From NCBI RefSeq assembly GCF_001280255.1, contig NZ_LHCI01000106.1:800274-864273 (forward strand): DNA of 64,000 nt, given 5' to 3'. The stretch comes from Thermus aquaticus. GTDB taxonomy: Bacteria; Deinococcota; Deinococci; Deinococcales; Thermaceae. Under the pieces are notes generated by a model that was not told the origin of the DNA, searched no databases, and saw only the letters and a program-made list of their open reading frames with translations. Each line of letters opens with the position of its first letter. Positions within the stretch are counted from its first letter, which is position 1. A program made the translations under genes and the position numbers. This document shows positions 2,231-34,250 of this stretch, in pieces.

Positions 2231-3061
2231 ATGGCAGTCAAGAAGTTCAAACCCTACACGCCTAGCCGCCGCTTCATGACGGTGGCGGACTTCTCCGAGA
2301 TCACCAAGACCGAGCCGGAGAAGTCCCTGGTCAAGCCCCTGAAGAAGACGGGGGGGCGCAACAACCAGGGCCGCATCACTGTGCGCTTCCGCGGAGGCGG
2401 CCACAAGCGCCTCTACCGCATCATTGACTTCAAGCGCTGGGACAAGGCCGGCATCCCCGCTAAGGTGGCGGCCATTGAGTACGACCCCAACCGCTCCGCC
2501 CGCATCGCCCTCCTCCACTACGCCGACGGGGAGAAGCGCTACATCATCGCCCCCGAGGGGCTTCAGGTGGGGCAGCAGGTGGTGGCGGGGCCCGATGCGC
2601 CCATCAGCGTGGGCAACGCCCTTCCTTTGCGCTTCATCCCCGTGGGTACCGTGGTCCACGCCGTGGAGCTGGAGCCCAAAAAGGGGGCCAAGCTGGCCCG
2701 CTCCGCCGGCACCAGCGCCCAGATCCAGGGCCGGGAAGGGGACTACGTGATCCTGCGCCTGCCCTCGGGGGAGCTGAGGAAGGTGCACGGGGAGTGCTAC
2801 GCCGCCATCGGGGCCGTGGGCAACGCCGACCACAAGAACATCGTCCTGGGCAAGGCGGGCCGCACCCGCTGGCTAGGCCGGAAGCCCCACGTGCGGGGCG
2901 CCGCCATGAACCCGGTGGACCACCCCCACGGCGGCGGCGAGGGCCGGGCGCCCCGGGGCCGTCCCCCGGCCTCCCCCTGGGGCTGGCAGACCAAGGGCCT
3001 CAAGACCAGGAAGCGGCGCAAGCCTTCCAGCCGCTTCATCATCGCCCGGCGGAAGAGGTGA
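2231..3061 (+). CDS. rplB: 50S ribosomal protein L2
   Basis: 276 residues, normal for L2. The ATG at 2231 follows GGGAGGAAAGAGGA. An open frame reaches back to 2153, but the family starts [12 protein letters not shown]. The HPHGGGEG motif required for peptidyl-transferase-centre assembly is present, as is the Thermus-type [20 protein letters not shown]-terminal block. Confidence 0.98.
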
Positions 3062-3066
3062 GGTGA

Positions 3067-3351
<285 letters not shown>

Positions 3352-25998: not shown

Positions 25999-27273
25999 AT
26001 GAAGAGCGAACCCCTTTCCTACCTGGGCAAGGACGGCGGACCCTGGGAGATCTTCACGGAGCAGGTGGACCGGGTCATCCCCTACCTGGGGCGGCTCGCC
26101 CCCTTGGCGGAGAGCCTCAAGCGGCCCAAACGCATCCTGATCGTGGACGTGCCCATCCACCTGGACGACGGCACCGTGGCCCACTTTGAGGGTTACCGGG
26201 TGCACCACAACACCGCCCGGGGGCCGGCCAAGGGCGGGGTGCGCTACCATCCCGAGGTGACTCTCTCCGAGGTCATGGCCCTGGCCGCCTGGATGACCAT
26301 AAAAAACGCCGCCGTGGGCCTGCCCTATGGCGGGGGCAAGGGCGGCATCCGGGTTGACCCCAAGAAGCTCTCTAGCCACGAGCTGGAGCGCCTCACCCGC
26401 CGCTACACCTCGGAGATCGGCATCCTGCTGGGGCCCGACCGGGACATCCCCGCTCCCGACGTGAACACCGGAGAGCGGGAGATGGCCTGGATGATGGACA
26501 CCTTCTCCATGAACGTGGGCCGCACCGTCCCCGGGGTGGTGACGGGGAAGCCCATCGCCCTGGGGGGCTCTTTGGGCCGAAGGGACGCCACGGGGCGGGG
26601 AGTCTTCGTGACCGCCGCCGCGGCCGCCGCCAAGATCGGCCTTCCCGTGGAGGGGAGCCGGGTCATCCTCCAAGGCTTCGGCAACGTGGGGAGCGCCGCC
26701 GCCCGCGCCTTCCACGACCACGGGGCCAGGGTCATCGCCGTACAGGACCACACGGGCACCATTTACAACGAGGCGGGCATTGACCCCTACGACCTGGCCC
26801 GCTACGTGGCCGAGATGGGGGGCGTGCGGGGCTACCCCAAGGCGGAGCCCCTGCCTAACCCCGAGTTCTGGGCCCTCCCCACCGAGTTCCTCATCCCCGC
26901 CGCTTTGGAGAAGCAGATCACCGAGCACAACGCCTGGCGCATCCAGGCCCGCATCGTGGCCGAGGGGGCCAACGGCCCCACCACCCCCGCCGCCGACGAC
27001 ATCCTCCAGGAGAAGGGGGTCCTGGTGGTGCCGGACGTGATCGCCAACGCCGGGGGCGTGACCGTGAGCTACTTTGAGTGGGTCCAGGACTTCAACTCCT
27101 ACTTCTGGACCGAGGAGGAGATCAACGCCCGCCTGGAGAGGGTCCTTAGGAACGCCTTTGAGGCGGTGTGGCAGGTGGCGGAGGAGAAGAAGATCTCCCT
27201 GCGCACCGCCGCCTACGTGGTGGCGGCCACCCGGGTCCTCGAGGCCCGGGCCCTCCGGGGGCTTTACCCTTAG
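25999..27273 (+). CDS. gdhB: Glutamate dehydrogenase catalytic subunit GdhB
   Basis: 424 residues with all catalytic features: [13 protein letters not shown], the PYGGGKGGI loop with catalytic K114, the APDVNTG Asp, and the dinucleotide site [20 protein letters not shown]. It converts glutamate to 2-oxoglutarate and ammonia. It is the active partner of the adjacent gdhA product, and the close spacing supports co-expression. The ATG follows AAGGAGCGCGT. Confidence 0.95.
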
Positions 27274-28954: not shown

Positions 28955-29977
28955 ATGCAGAAGAAGGACCTCCTCTCTACGCCCGTGGTCCCCATTGACA
29001 TCAAGGCCTTTGACGCCGGGCCCATCCTGGAGGCCATGGGCAGGACCGCCTTCCAGGCCAGGAACCTCTACCGGGCGGCGGAGATCTACCTGAAGATGCT
29101 GGAGGACGACGCCGCCGTCATCCTCACCCTGGCGGGGAGCCTGGTTTCCGCCGGGCAGGGCCTCATCATCCACGACCTCATCCGTAAGGGCCTGGTGGAC
29201 GCCATCGTGGCCACGGGGGCCAACATCGTGGACCAGGACTTCTTTGAGGCCCTGGGCCACCGCCACTACCAGGGGGACCCCAAGGCCGACGACGAGACCC
29301 TTAGGCGGCTTTGGATTGACCGCATCTACGACACCTACATTGACGAGGAAGAGCTTCGCCACACCGACTACACCATCGCCGAGATCGCCGACGCCCTCCC
29401 GCCCCGCCCCTACTCCAGTCGGGAGTTCATCTGGCACATGGGCCGCTACCTAGCCGAAAGGGGCCTGGGGGAGAGGAGCATCGTCCGGGCCGCCTACGAG
29501 GAGGGGGTGCCCATCTTCGTCCCCGCCTTCTCCGACTCCTCGGCGGGCTTTGGGCTGGTCTACCACCAGGTCAAGCGCCCCGAGGCCCACGTCACCATAG
29601 ACTCCGTGGCCGACTTCCGCGAGCTCACGGAGATCAAGCTGAAGGCGGGGACCACGGGCCTGGTGATGCTGGGGGGCGGGGTGCCCAAGAACTTCGCCCA
29701 GGACATCGTGGTGGCCGCCGAGGTGCTGGGCCATCAGGTGGAGATGCACAAGTACGCCATCCAGATCACCGTGGCCGATGAGCGGGACGGGGGGCTTTCC
29801 GGTTCCACCCTCTCCGAGGCCCAGAGCTGGGGCAAGGTGGACGCCGCCCTCTCCCAGATGGTCTTCGCCGAGGCCACCCTGGCCTTCCCCCTCCTGGCCT
29901 CCTACGTGTGGCACCGGGCCCCTATGAGGGCCAAGCGCCGCTACGCCGACCTCTTCCGGGCGGAAGTGCCCGCTTAA
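28955..29977 (+). CDS. Deoxyhypusine synthase-like protein
   Basis: 340 residues. The DHS fold is clear: AAVILTLAGSLVSAGQGLIIHDLIRKG, VDAIVATGANIVDQD, and the segment SWGKVD whose Lys (K294) aligns with the Lys that forms the enzyme-imine intermediate in DHS. True DHS modifies eIF5A, which bacteria lack. Bacterial members are thought to make polyamines such as homospermidine or to have unknown roles. Thermus is rich in unusual polyamines, so a polyamine role is plausible but inferred. The ATG follows AAAGGAGAACG. Confidence 0.85.
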   Translation: MQKKDLLSTPVVPIDIKAFDAGPILEAMGRTAFQARNLYRAAEIYLKMLEDDAAVILTLAGSLVSAGQGLIIHDLIRKGLVDAIVATGANIVDQDFFEALGHRHYQGDPKADDETLRRLWIDRIYDTYIDEEELRHTDYTIAEIADALPPRPYSSREFIWHMGRYLAERGLGERSIVRAAYEEGVPIFVPAFSDSSAGFGLVYHQVKRPEAHVTIDSVADFRELTEIKLKAGTTGLVMLGGGVPKNFAQDIVVAAEVLGHQVEMHKYAIQITVADERDGGLSGSTLSEAQSWGKVDAALSQMVFAEATLAFPLLASYVWHRAPMRAKRRYADLFRAEVPA

Positions 29978-29995
29978 GCACCCCGCCGCGGCAAG
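29977..29995 (+). repeat. Copy of GC-rich intergenic repeat (half form)
   Basis: AGCACCCCGCCGCGGCAAG shares its core with the copies at 35715-35750 and 58637-58660. The second palindrome arm is absent, and a separate terminator hairpin follows at 30000. Confidence 0.5.
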
Positions 29996-29999
29996 TTTT

Positions 30000-30029
30000 G
30001 GGGGCGGCTTTACCGCCCCCCTTTCTTTT
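30000..30029 (+). terminator. Rho-independent terminator
   Basis: GGGGGCGG (30000-30007) pairs with CCGCCCCC (30013-30020) across CTTTA and is followed by CTTTCTTTT. It is the clearest intrinsic terminator in the window and ends the deoxyhypusine-synthase-like transcript. Confidence 0.85.
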
Positions 30030-30031
30030 GG

Positions 30032-30037
30032 TAGACT
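30032..30037 (+). promoter_or_regulatory. -10 box for the 918-residue protein gene
   Basis: TAGACT, 8 bases before the ATG at 30046 and directly after the terminator T run. Confidence 0.5.
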
Positions 30038-30045
30038 CCTGGCAA

Positions 30046-32802
30046 ATGCCCGACGAGCTAAAGGCCTACCTGAAGGAGCGCTTTGGCGTTTCCGCCGCCC
30101 TTTCCCCCGGGCGGTTTGAAGCCGAGGTGGCCAAAAGGGTGGGGAGCCCCGTCAAGCGGGAGCCCCTCCTCAGAGCCTGGCGGGCCTACCTCTCAGGCGG
30201 GGGGAGGGAGGCGGTGCGAAGTTTCTACCGGGAGGTGCTGAAGGTCCCCAAGGGGGAGGCCCTGGTCTACGGCATGCACCTCCCCTTCCTGGAGTTTTAC
30301 GCCAGGGAGGTGCCGGGGAGGCTGGAGGGGGAGGTCCTCGAGGTGGGGGCCTTCACCGGGGCTTTGGTGGGGTACCTGAAGCTAAAGCGCCCGGAGCTCG
30401 CCTTCCACGCCCTGGACGGGGTGGAAGAGGCGGTGGAGGCCGGCAGGAAGCGGGTGCCGGAGGTTACTTGGCACCTGGGCTGGGCGGAGGAGGCGGAGCT
30501 AGCGCCCTTTGATACCCTCCTCCTCCTCTCCGTCTTTCCCGAGGGCCTGGTGGACCAGGAGCTGGAGAGCCGCCTGCCCCCCGAGGCCTTCTGGAAGCGC
30601 TTCTCCTTTTTTGCGCGCCTGCCCCAGTTCGTGCGCTTCTTAAGGCCGGGGGGGCTTCTCGTCTACGGCCACGGCCCCTTTTTGGGGAAGAGCCCGGAAG
30701 GGGTGGAGGAGGGGCTGAGGCGCCTGGGCTTTTGGCAGGTGGAGCGGGTGGGGGAGGGGGAGTACGTCCTGGTCCTGGCCCGCAAGCCCGAGGTCCTGGA
30801 GGAGGCCTTCCTGGAAGAGGAGGCCTTGGAGGAGCTCTTCGCCGAGCCTATGCCCGTCATGGCTCGGGGGCTGGACCTGGAGGAGGTCCGGGCCCTCCTG
30901 GAAGAGGGAGCCTACAAGGAGGTCCTGGCCCGGGTCCCCGAGGAGGCCGAAGGGGAGGCCGCCTACCTGCGGGGGCGGGCCCTTTACGCTCTCTCTCGCT
31001 ACGCCGAGGCGGAGGAGGCCCTGAAGCGGGCCTTTTCCGAGGAGGCTGAGGACCTGAGGGCCTTGGTCCTGGTGGAGCTCGGGGAGTACGAGCGGGCCAA
31101 GCGCCGCCTCGAGGGCCTGGCCCCCCGGGGCGGGCGGTACCGCCTGGCCCTGGGGCGGGTCTACCTGGCGGAGGGGCGGTACGCCGATGCCCTCAGGCAG
31201 TTCGTGGAATCCGGGCTTCCCGAGGCCGAGGTCTACGCCAGGGAGGCCCTGGAGCGCATCGCCGAGCGGATGCGCCGCTTCGCCCGGGAGGGAGAGTGGG
31301 CGGAGGTGAGCCGCCGGGCGGAGTTTGTGGAGGATCTCTCCCCAGGCCTCCTCACCCGGGAGATGCTCCGGCTTGGGCTTAAGGCGGCTCTCCTCCAGGG
31401 GCTTTTCGCCCGGGCCGAGCGGTACGCCAGAAGGCTCGCCGACCTGGGCGAAGCCGAGGGCTTCTTGGGCCTGGCCCTGGCCGGGCTTCGGCTGCGCTCC
31501 CCCCTGGAGCACCGGGGCGAGGACCTGAAGGCGGTGGAGCCCTACCTGACCGAGGCCCTGGCCCGGGAGGAGATCCCCGAAGCCCTTCTCCTCCTGGGCA
31601 TCCTACGCCGCCGGGAGGGGCGGCTTCACGAGGCCCTGCGCCTTTTGGAGCGGGCGAGCCGCCACGGGGAGGGGGAGGTGGCGGGCCTGGCCTTCCACCA
31701 CCTGGCGGAGGTGAAGCGGGCCCTCAGGCGCCCCCTCAAGGAGGTCCTGGGGGACCACAAGCGGGCCCACGCCCTCAAGGCCTACCCCGCCCCCTACCTC
31801 TTCCGCCTGGCCCAGGAGGCCCTAAAGGGCGGGGAGGAGGTGCTGGCCCGGGAACTCCTCTCCCGGGCCCGGGACGCGGGGCTGGAGGAGGTGGCCGAGG
31901 CGGACCTTAGGGGGCTTCTTGCCCTCCTGGAGCGCCTCGAGGGGCCCTTTGCTGCCTTCAGCGTGCTCTACCAGGCCCTGGCCCGCACGCCGAGTCCCCC
32001 TTTGGAGCTTCTGGCCCTGGCCTACCGCCTCTCCCGCGCCTTCCCGGAAAGCCCCGAGGCGGAGGCGGTGCGGGGCCAGTACCTGGCGGCCCTCTACGGG
32101 GCGGGCCGGGTGGAGGAGGCGGAAAAGGTTCTCCTGGCCGAGCACCAGGAGCGCCCCCAGGCCCTGGAGGTCCTCTTTGACCTGGCGGAGCACCACGAGG
32201 CCAAAGGGGAGTGGAAGAAGGCGGCGGAGTACTGGCAGAAGGCCCTGGAGGTGGCCCTCTACCGGGAGAAGGACCTGGCCCAGGCCCGAGAGATCCTGAA
32301 GAACCTCCTCTTCCTGCGGCCTGGCGACGAGAGCCTTTCCCTCTACCTGGAGGAGCTTAGGGAGGTGAGCCAGGCCCTAAAGGCCCTTGGGGAGGAGGCC
32401 CCCCAGGTTCCCGGGAAGGAGGCCCTCGTGGAGGAGGCTTTGCCCCGCTTCCACGGGGAGCACCTGGTGGTGGTGGGGGGGCACACCCAGCTCCGGAGCC
32501 GCCTCACCCCCCTCTTGGAGGCCCGGGGCCTCAAGGTGGACTGGTACGATGCCGACACCGCTGGGGTAGGGAAGGAGGCCTTACGGCGCATCCTGGGCCG
32601 CCTGGAGAAGGCCCACGGCCTCATGATCGTCTCCAGCTACGTGGGCCACGACCTCTCGGAGCCGGTGCGCCTCGAGGCGGAGCGCCTGGGGGTTCCCGTC
32701 CACGTCATCCCCGGGCGGGCCCGGGGGAGCACGGGCTTCTTGAGGGCCCTCAAGGCCTTCGCCCCGGAGATCTTCAAGAAGGCCCTCAAGGGGGTACAGT
32801 GA
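30046..32802 (+). CDS. Methyltransferase-like / TPR / DUF2325 fusion protein
   Basis: 918 residues from the ATG at 30046; the open frame extends upstream through a terminator and is not used. Three parts are visible. Residues about 75-250 look like a class I SAM-methyltransferase fold (EVLEVGAFTGALVGYLKL, FHALDG, FLRPGGLLVYGHGP). Residues about 280-770 are TPR-like helical repeats rich in Glu, Leu and Ala. Residues about 805-910 resemble DUF2325 (LVVVGGHTQLRSRLTPLLE, then MIVSSYVGHDLSEPVRLEAERLG). The combination is unusual and no function is known. The stop lies 5 bases before mqnD, so the two may be co-transcribed. Confidence 0.8.
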   Translation: MPDELKAYLKERFGVSAALSPGRFEAEVAKRVGSPVKREPLLRAWRAYLSGGGREAVRSFYREVLKVPKGEALVYGMHLPFLEFYAREVPGRLEGEVLEVGAFTGALVGYLKLKRPELAFHALDGVEEAVEAGRKRVPEVTWHLGWAEEAELAPFDTLLLLSVFPEGLVDQELESRLPPEAFWKRFSFFARLPQFVRFLRPGGLLVYGHGPFLGKSPEGVEEGLRRLGFWQVERVGEGEYVLVLARKPEVLEEAFLEEEALEELFAEPMPVMARGLDLEEVRALLEEGAYKEVLARVPEEAEGEAAYLRGRALYALSRYAEAEEALKRAFSEEAEDLRALVLVELGEYERAKRRLEGLAPRGGRYRLALGRVYLAEGRYADALRQFVESGLPEAEVYAREALERIAERMRRFAREGEWAEVSRRAEFVEDLSPGLLTREMLRLGLKAALLQGLFARAERYARRLADLGEAEGFLGLALAGLRLRSPLEHRGEDLKAVEPYLTEALAREEIPEALLLLGILRRREGRLHEALRLLERASRHGEGEVAGLAFHHLAEVKRALRRPLKEVLGDHKRAHALKAYPAPYLFRLAQEALKGGEEVLARELLSRARDAGLEEVAEADLRGLLALLERLEGPFAAFSVLYQALARTPSPPLELLALAYRLSRAFPESPEAEAVRGQYLAALYGAGRVEEAEKVLLAEHQERPQALEVLFDLAEHHEAKGEWKKAAEYWQKALEVALYREKDLAQAREILKNLLFLRPGDESLSLYLEELREVSQALKALGEEAPQVPGKEALVEEALPRFHGEHLVVVGGHTQLRSRLTPLLEARGLKVDWYDADTAGVGKEALRRILGRLEKAHGLMIVSSYVGHDLSEPVRLEAERLGVPVHVIPGRARGSTGFLRALKAFAPEIFKKALKGVQ

Positions 32803-32807
32803 GGCCT

Positions 32808-33626
32808 ATGGAGGCTCTGAAGCTGGGCTACTCCCCCTGCCCCAACGACACCTACATCTTCTACGCCCTGGCCCACGGCCTGGTGGCGACGCCCCGCCCG
32901 GTGGAGGTGGTCTTGGAGGACGTGGAGACCCTGAACCGCTGGGCCCTGGAAGGCAGGCTTCCCCTCACCAAGCTCTCCTACGCCGCCTACGGCCGGGTGC
33001 GGGAGAGGTATGTGGCCTTGAGGAGCGGGGGGGCCCTGGGCCGGGGGGTGGGACCCCTCCTGGTGGCCCGGGGGCCTTTGGGAGACCTCCGGGGGGCGCG
33101 GGTGGCCATCCCCGGGCGGAACACCACGGCCTTCCTCCTCCTTTCCCTCTACGGGGAGGGGTTTTCGCCGGTGGAGGTGCGCTACGACCAGATCATGCCC
33201 ATGGTGGCCCGGGGGGAGGTGGAGGCGGGCCTCATCATCCACGAAAGCCGCTTCACCTACCCCCAGTACGGCCTGGTGAAGCTTCTGGACCTGGGGGAGT
33301 GGTGGGAGGAGCGGACGGGCCTGCCCCTGCCCCTGGGGGCCATCCTGGCCCGGCGGGACCTGGGGGAGGAACTTATCCGCGCCCTGGACGGGGCGGTGCG
33401 GCGGAGCCTAGAGTACGCCCACGCCCACCCCGAGGAGGTCCTGCCTTACCTCAAGGCCCACGCCCAGGAGCTCTCCGAGGAGGTCATCTGGGCCCACGTG
33501 CGCACCTACGTGAACGCCTACTCCCTGGACGTGGGGGAGGAAGGGCAAAGGGCGGTGGAAAGGCTCTTCGCCGAAGCCGAGGCCCGGGGGCTTTTGCCTT
33601 CCTCCTCGGCCCCCCTCTTTCTGTAG
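32808..33626 (+). CDS. mqnD: 1,4-dihydroxy-6-naphthoate synthase (MqnD)
   Basis: 272 residues from the ATG at 32808, the length I recall for the T. thermophilus enzyme. It begins MEALKLGYSPCPNDTYIFYAL, the MqnD signature, and contains VAIPGRNTTAFLLLSLYG and LIIHESRFTYPQYGL with the catalytic His region. It converts cyclic dehypoxanthine futalosine to 1,4-dihydroxy-6-naphthoate in the futalosine route to menaquinone. Preceded by the MTase/TPR gene and followed by a CRP-type regulator. Confidence 0.96.
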   Translation: MEALKLGYSPCPNDTYIFYALAHGLVATPRPVEVVLEDVETLNRWALEGRLPLTKLSYAAYGRVRERYVALRSGGALGRGVGPLLVARGPLGDLRGARVAIPGRNTTAFLLLSLYGEGFSPVEVRYDQIMPMVARGEVEAGLIIHESRFTYPQYGLVKLLDLGEWWEERTGLPLPLGAILARRDLGEELIRALDGAVRRSLEYAHAHPEEVLPYLKAHAQELSEEVIWAHVRTYVNAYSLDVGEEGQRAVERLFAEAEARGLLPSSSAPLFL

Positions 33627-33629
33627 ACT
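33624..33629 (+). promoter_or_regulatory. -10 box for the CRP-family gene
   Basis: TAGACT overlaps the mqnD stop codon (TAG 33624-33626), 6 bases before the ATG at 33636. Confidence 0.5.
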
Positions 33630-33635
33630 CAGGGC

Positions 33636-34250
33636 ATGTTCCAGGAGCTTGGCCCCAAAGCCCGCCAGGCGGCCGCCCGGGCCTTCAGGCCCCTAAGGGT
33701 GCGGCGGGGAAGCGTCCTCTACCGGGAAGGGGACGAGGTGGAAGGGCTTTACCTGGTGCGGGAGGGGTTCATCTGGCTAGGGGACGCCCGGGTGGAGCCC
33801 GCCACCCTGGGCGTGGTGGGGCCCGGGGGGCTCTTTGGCGAGGAGGCCCTGGTGGGGGAAAGGGCGCGCACCTTGGGGGCCACGGCCCTCACCTACGCCG
33901 AGCTCCTCTTCGCCCCCAAGGAGGAGCTTGTGGCCCTCCTCGAGGCCTTCCCCGAGGCCCAGGGCTTCTTCCTCAAGGCCCTTTACGCCCGCCTCAAGGC
34001 GGCGGAGGCGCGGCTTTGGGAGGCGCGCCACCTCTCCGTGGCCCAGCGCCTGGCCCGCCTCCTCCTGGCCCTTGGGCCGGGCGAGGTGGGGCTTTCCCAC
34101 CAGGACCTGGCCCGGATGGTGGGGGCCACCCGGGAGACGGTAACCAAGCTCCTGGGGGAGTGGGCCCTTAGGGGCGTGGTGGACCTGGGCTACCGGCGGC
34201 TTCAGGTCCTGGATCCCAAGGCCCTTGCCCGCCTGGGCGAGGCCCTATAG
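33636..34250 (+). CDS. CRP/FNR-family transcriptional regulator
   Basis: 204 residues. The cyclic-nucleotide-binding-like beta roll (about 15-110) contains GSVLYREGDEVEGLYLVREG and VVGPGGLFGEEALVG. A long dimer helix leads to the winged helix with LSHQDLARMVGATRETVTKLL as recognition motif. No Fe-S cysteines are present, and the Arg-Ser-type cAMP pocket is not evident, so the effector is unknown; it may be ligand-free like T. thermophilus SdrP. It lies downstream of mqnD, as in T. thermophilus. Confidence 0.92.
   Translation: MFQELGPKARQAAARAFRPLRVRRGSVLYREGDEVEGLYLVREGFIWLGDARVEPATLGVVGPGGLFGEEALVGERARTLGATALTYAELLFAPKEELVALLEAFPEAQGFFLKALYARLKAAEARLWEARHLSVAQRLARLLLALGPGEVGLSHQDLARMVGATRETVTKLLGEWALRGVVDLGYRRLQVLDPKALARLGEAL

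Follow-up and report, generated by a model that had tools for sequence, protein, structure and literature searches.

The 918-residue protein encoded near the middle of the window (the whole 64,000-nucleotide stretch of Thermus aquaticus DNA analysed here) carries a methyltransferase domain, a TPR solenoid and a DUF2325 domain in one chain, apparently an undescribed combination, and is most likely a SAM methyltransferase that docks its substrate and has DUF2325 as its regulatory end. The three domains are conserved together as a single unit, and the cofactor and active-site positions of the methyltransferase domain are conserved. The domain combination also marks a single-copy gene conserved throughout the Thermaceae. 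Since DUF2325, a family for which no molecular function was found in the literature searched, is here covalently tied to a probable SAM enzyme, its ligand and role become directly testable, and the fusion occurs in thermophiles with laboratory genetics.

Domain architecture and sequence conservation

An earlier note on this DNA had read three domains in this order, and Pfam, profile searches and AlphaFold agree on that reading. The AlphaFold run, made with 25 sequences (mean pLDDT 86.5), predicts six helices, a methyltransferase strand order at residues 96-246, 30-odd helices at 278-780 and a (beta-alpha)4 unit at 806-915; the overall pTM is 0.52, and the relative placement of the domains is therefore not given by the model. 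The features of the coding region are:

30046..32802, + strand: gene of the methyltransferase-TPR-DUF2325 protein, a 918-aa ORF
30046..30315, + strand: N-terminal helical cap, residues 1-90, six predicted helices (AlphaFold)
30316..30801, + strand: class I SAM-methyltransferase fold, residues 91-252 (AlphaFold, PDB profile, Pfam)
30340..30360, + strand: motif I, E-V-G-A-F-T-G, residues 99-105; E99, G101 and G105 invariant in 38 orthologues
30529..30546, + strand: post-b4 loop, S-V-F-P-E-G, residues 162-167; S162, P165 and E166 invariant
30664..30690, + strand: post-b5 loop, YGHGPFLGK, residues 207-215, the most conserved stretch of the N-terminal half
30802..30873, + strand: variable disordered linker, residues 253-276, with low pLDDT and high entropy
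30874..32400, + strand: TPR/TPR-like solenoid, residues 277-785, ~15 helix pairs (Pfam, AlphaFold, Foldseek)
32443..32799, + strand: DUF2325 domain, residues 800-918, (beta-alpha)4 fold, pI 10.3
32476..32502, + strand: GGHTQLRSR, residues 811-819, loop after b1, the best-conserved nonamer in the whole protein
32632..32670, + strand: SSYVGHDLSEPVR, residues 863-875, loop after b3; H868 aligns with the His of canonical DUF2325 (YVNHN)
32710..32736, + strand: PGRARGxTG, residues 889-897, loop after b4

Selection is purifying in every part but the linker: elsewhere dN/dS lies well under 1, whereas at residues 253-276 it ranges from 0.45 to 1.26, with an entropy of 2.6 bits and pLDDT below 50 at 255-274. 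Whole-model Foldseek searches were dominated by TPR solenoids and uninformative as a clue to either end of the protein, and a PHROGs search gave no matches to it.

The methyltransferase assignment is weak in the window protein alone but firm across the family. Methyltransf_12 and Methyltransf_25 match the window protein only weakly (E 0.003-0.005), under all Pfam methyltransferase cut-offs, whereas 16 of 25 orthologue N-terminal domains searched one by one match Methyltransf_12 (best 1e-5) and some match Methyltransf_31 (best 2.5e-6), one of several further methyltransferase families hit. The PDB chains matched by the N-terminal family profile are mainly SAM methyltransferases, including HemK (the best, E 1.6e-4) and Thermus TT1324 (1.4e-3). 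The Rossmann-type fold that the earlier note had expected in the first domain appears in the predicted structure, which has the seven-strand order of class I methyltransferases. In the helical cap, PGRFE near residues 21-25 is conserved.

The departure of motif I from ExGxGxG had been taken as a reason to doubt that the domain methylates. This proves a poor inference, as the same variant occurs in catechol O-methyltransferase (COMT), an active enzyme whose motif I is ELGAYCG (the query sequence matched solved COMT chains). The motif follows E-[VI]-G-[AP]-[FY]-[TS]-G in 38/38 orthologues, with F or Y at position 103; the doubt is further opposed by an acid at the end of b2 (E/D124, again 38/38) and by the conserved post-b4 and post-b5 loops, H209-K215 of the latter being invariant in the orthologue alignment. 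The domain shows neither NPPY nor any other familiar catalytic motif from which its reaction could be named. The C-terminal edges of b1-b5 hold more than their share of invariant residues (14/35 versus 37/162 overall, P 0.008), and in the DUF2325 domain the invariant positions cluster directly behind the strands (25/40 versus 52/119, P 0.003); both P values are modest, the analyst having picked the edge windows and phylogeny being ignored. The ends of b1-b5 form the cofactor and substrate cleft; taken with motif I, the conserved loops and purifying selection, the enrichment there favours an enzyme.

The solenoid that follows is matched by TPR_2 (33.1 bits, E 4e-8) and TPR_19 (32.2 bits, E 1e-7), both above the Pfam cut-off, and by Foldseek to TPR solenoids such as OGT, SPINDLY, Ctr9 and APC/C subunits. 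It is acidic, with a charge of -13.

The C-terminal DUF2325 match, also proposed earlier, was obtained with Pfam. PF10087 scores 27.7 bits (E 3e-6) against the full protein and 32.1 bits (E 1e-7) against the isolated window domain, slightly below the cut-off of 33.6 bits; it matches all 25 orthologue C-termini (best E 3e-10) and exceeds the cut-off in 26 of 111 Deinococcota genomes (top 40.5 bits). Comparison with stand-alone members from Anoxybacillus, Nitratiruptor and Arcobacter shows the family hallmarks to be invariant, namely a Gly near b1 and a His after b3 (NHN/GHD), and Gly, Asp, His, Ala and Pro are common to the window domain and plasmid-borne members in an alignment; the latter came from a consensus query, and Pfam confirms their membership at 53-58 bits. 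The stand-alone proteins, Cj1384 included, belong to the same Pfam family but are 98-110 aa long and 16-21% identical to the window domain, which here ends a 918-aa chain. The domain is basic (pI 10.3, charge +7.5, invariant Arg/His), and GGHTQLRSR, SSYVGHDLSEPVR and PGRARGxTG lie on the usual ligand face, from which we infer that it binds an anionic ligand or partner. Foldseek with the DUF2325 model, the best and the only confident one of five predictions, found no match at E < 0.001 and returned generic doubly wound folds (receiver, TIR and transcarbamoylase domains).

Background on the family comes mainly from Campylobacter Cj1384, which is PerR-regulated, light-induced 352-fold and located beside katA; the protein was linked to the peroxide response, could not be purified and, being Cys-rich, was suggested to have a redox role (PMC9426514). 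Cj1384 has 7 Cys and the fusion protein none, nor is any Cys conserved in its family, so a Cys redox role is excluded for the 918-aa protein. On a Nitratiruptor plasmid (L083 4082-10252), a stand-alone DUF2325 gene adjoins transcriptional repressor, ferritin, imelysin and FTR1 genes, an order that fits a connection of the DUF2325 family with iron or peroxide.

Gene boundaries, neighbourhood and distribution

The gene order in Thermus is a DHS-like (cdmS-type) gene, the fusion gene and mqnD. Two signals lie between the first two:

30000..30029, + strand: intrinsic terminator-like hairpin, GGGGGCGG-CTTTA-CCGCCCCC plus a T-rich tail, behind the DHS-like (cdmS-type) gene
30009..30037, + strand: probable promoter, seen by eye, with -35-like TTTACC, ~17 nt and -10-like TAGACT ending 8 nt 5' of the ATG

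The earlier note's proposal of a terminator followed by the gene's own promoter is plausible; across Thermus the promoter is conserved. By eye, a -10-like TANACT (TAGACT, TACACT or TAAACT) stands ~8 nt 5' of the same ATG in all 11 Thermus upstream regions, which supports the ATG start of the 918-aa ORF, and a -35-like TTTACC or TGGACC precedes it by 17-18 nt across the Thermus loci; an automatic promoter scan gave no site above threshold for this gene. Such a promoter-to-ATG layout is that of a leaderless Thermus mRNA. The hairpin match alone is weak, because the search of 29900-33700 found one site and shuffled sequence averages 3.2. Inverted repeats rich in GC, of varying position, occur at this place in other Thermus species. 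Within window 30000-30037, the hairpin of the upstream gene overlaps the -35 region of the fusion gene, the -35 falling within the hairpin at 30000-30020; the hairpin sequence varies among other Thermus species and the promoter is constant. With the end of the fusion gene at 32802 and the mqnD ATG at 32808, co-transcription of both genes is probable in Thermus.

The position directly before mqnD holds for Thermus and the nearest sister genus but not for Meiothermus, Calidithermus or Oceanithermus-like loci. In Meiothermus and Calidithermus the neighbours of the fusion gene are unrelated; in the Oceanithermus-like loci, judged from translations, glutamate dehydrogenase, GNAT and dehydrogenase genes lie 5' and a transketolase-like gene 3'. 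The mqnD neighbourhood is therefore a Thermus trait and little evidence of function, and the neighbourhood as a whole was set aside as a clue, the cdmS-type gene 5' and mqnD/CRP/bshC 3' of it being kept only in Thermus and the sister genus. From the HB8 gene order we take the DHS-like neighbour to be TTHA1570, the gene of CdmS. CdmS (TTHA1570) has been characterised as caldomycin synthase (PMC10981699). No conserved neighbour or pathway in the loci examined points to a specific reaction. Further upstream, window 25999-27273 and, in related loci, also its preceding gene are tandem glutamate dehydrogenase genes; with GNAT and D-2-hydroxyacid dehydrogenase-like genes they make up a block that lies 5' of the fusion gene in Oceanithermus-like genomes too.

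Essentially every Thermus, Meiothermus and Calidithermus genome sampled has one near-full-length copy of the fusion gene, as do genera g8 and g12 of a sister family; genus g19 of the latter lacks it, and so do families f2, f3 and f5. DUF2325 occurs in 54 of 111 Deinococcota genomes, in each case once and coincident with the fusion protein, and no separate DUF2325 was found in those of the 111 without the fusion gene. This argues that the methyltransferase, TPR and DUF2325 parts act as a unit. Three genomes of the gene's own family gave no DUF2325 match, two of them poorly complete (G025, G076 and G078; the third is in ~490 contigs). A scan of 84,980 species, which may miss distant relatives because it is based on two short N-terminal/TPR peptide patterns, gave named fusion loci in Thermus, Meiothermus, Calidithermus and 'Thermaceae' MAGs. 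DUF2325-domain searches of plasmid and phage proteins returned nothing, and neither a methyltransferase-domain search of plasmids nor viral-contig scans found anything. A part in a defence system was considered and rejected, as there were no PADLOC matches and the gene is a core single-copy one and not island-like. In T. thermophilus HB8 the locus name of the gene is presumably TTHA1569; no literature on this locus was found, and the T. thermophilus Tn-seq paper does not name it in its text.

A few orthologues are interrupted. That of T. parvatiensis RL (L076 8001-10745; G021:C1:503949-506693) is split into four frames, and since gdh, the dehydrogenase gene and bshC are also split there, the breaks suggest sequencing errors and not decay. 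Two others (G010:C1:1536990-1539769 and G034:C1:2109878-2112651) come from otherwise complete genomes and are each interrupted once, by a stop or frame break within the DUF2325 domain or close to it.

Known systems and candidate functions

Several known systems share parts of this architecture. In the CheR-TPR proteins (WspC, FrzF), a methyltransferase domain likewise precedes a TPR domain within a single polypeptide. CheR proteins whose C-terminus carries TPRs are apparently functional as methyltransferases, and removal of that part from FrzF alters the methylation pattern (PMC3447774). They supply the working model; the fusion protein itself is not a CheR. CheR-TPR proteins contain 1-4 repeats, in contrast to ~15 helix pairs and an extra DUF2325 end here; CheR models in the Pfam scan did not match at E up to 1, and no chemosensory genes were recognised near the fusion gene. 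PrmC/HemK, the top PDB profile match, also has a helical N-terminal cap before a class I fold, but carries NPPY after b4 where the fusion protein has SVFPEG. The protein was rejected as PrmC on account of this replacement and because the PrmC model, which finds the genome's own PrmC at C106:1039639-1040367 (223 bits), does not pick up the fusion gene. Catechol/caffeoyl-CoA-type O-methyltransferases share E-x-G-A-[FY]-[TC]-G as motif I, a motif-level likeness with no overall Pfam family match. OGT and SPINDLY, the top Foldseek matches, likewise place a long TPR solenoid on a catalytic domain, but differ in enzyme class and domain order, and at TM-scores of ~0.2 they presumably match via the TPR part only.

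We lean, with moderate confidence, towards a SAM-dependent methyltransferase of the Thermaceae, presumably cytosolic, with built-in substrate recruitment and a DUF2325 end for a ligand or partner. Residues 91-252 would hold SAM in the class I fold and catalyse the transfer; the TPR solenoid (277-785), flexibly hinged at the linker, would dock a protein or ribonucleoprotein substrate; and the Arg/His/Ser-rich face of DUF2325 may take a small anionic ligand or partner and so regulate or localise the reaction. Against an enzyme it counts that TPR solenoids also hold partners without enzymatic consequence. A more specific version would have DUF2325 sense a nucleotide or phosphorylated metabolite and allosterically gate methylation of a TPR-docked protein. 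It is rather improbable; if true, it would be the first molecular function for DUF2325.

The earlier note had suggested ligand binding without methylation in the first domain. A sensor or scaffold of this sort, whose fold would take up SAM/SAH or another ligand but not methylate, with TPR and DUF2325 as the output, we regard as unlikely. The Pfam scores under the cut-off and the absence of a recognisable catalytic motif speak for it, but the COMT-like motif I and the post-b4/post-b5 cleft, which with YGHGPFLGK foremost is among the most conserved parts of the domain, argue for catalysis. Thermophiles modify RNA heavily, and the N-terminal domain might instead methylate tRNA or rRNA bound by the TPR and DUF2325 parts. 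The basic charge and invariant Arg/His of DUF2325 would suit such an enzyme, as would the RNA binding known of some TPR domains (PMC3447774); yet the TPR part here is acidic, Pfam matched no RNA-binding domains and no RNA-methyltransferase motif was seen, which leaves an RNA substrate quite doubtful. It is very unlikely that the DUF2325 end serves an iron or peroxide response, as its stand-alone relatives may, with the remainder as an adaptor: the regulation of Cj1384 and the repressor, ferritin and FTR1 neighbours of the Nitratiruptor gene would accord with it, but Cys-based redox chemistry of the Cj1384 type is inapplicable to this protein and in the loci examined the fusion gene had no recognisable iron or peroxide genes as neighbours. 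The preferred reading remains that of a methyltransferase with a docking solenoid and a DUF2325 end.

A further trace of the DUF2325 family was seen on a Peribacillus plasmid (L085 ~2857-3120), as an unannotated, degraded frame with several stops.
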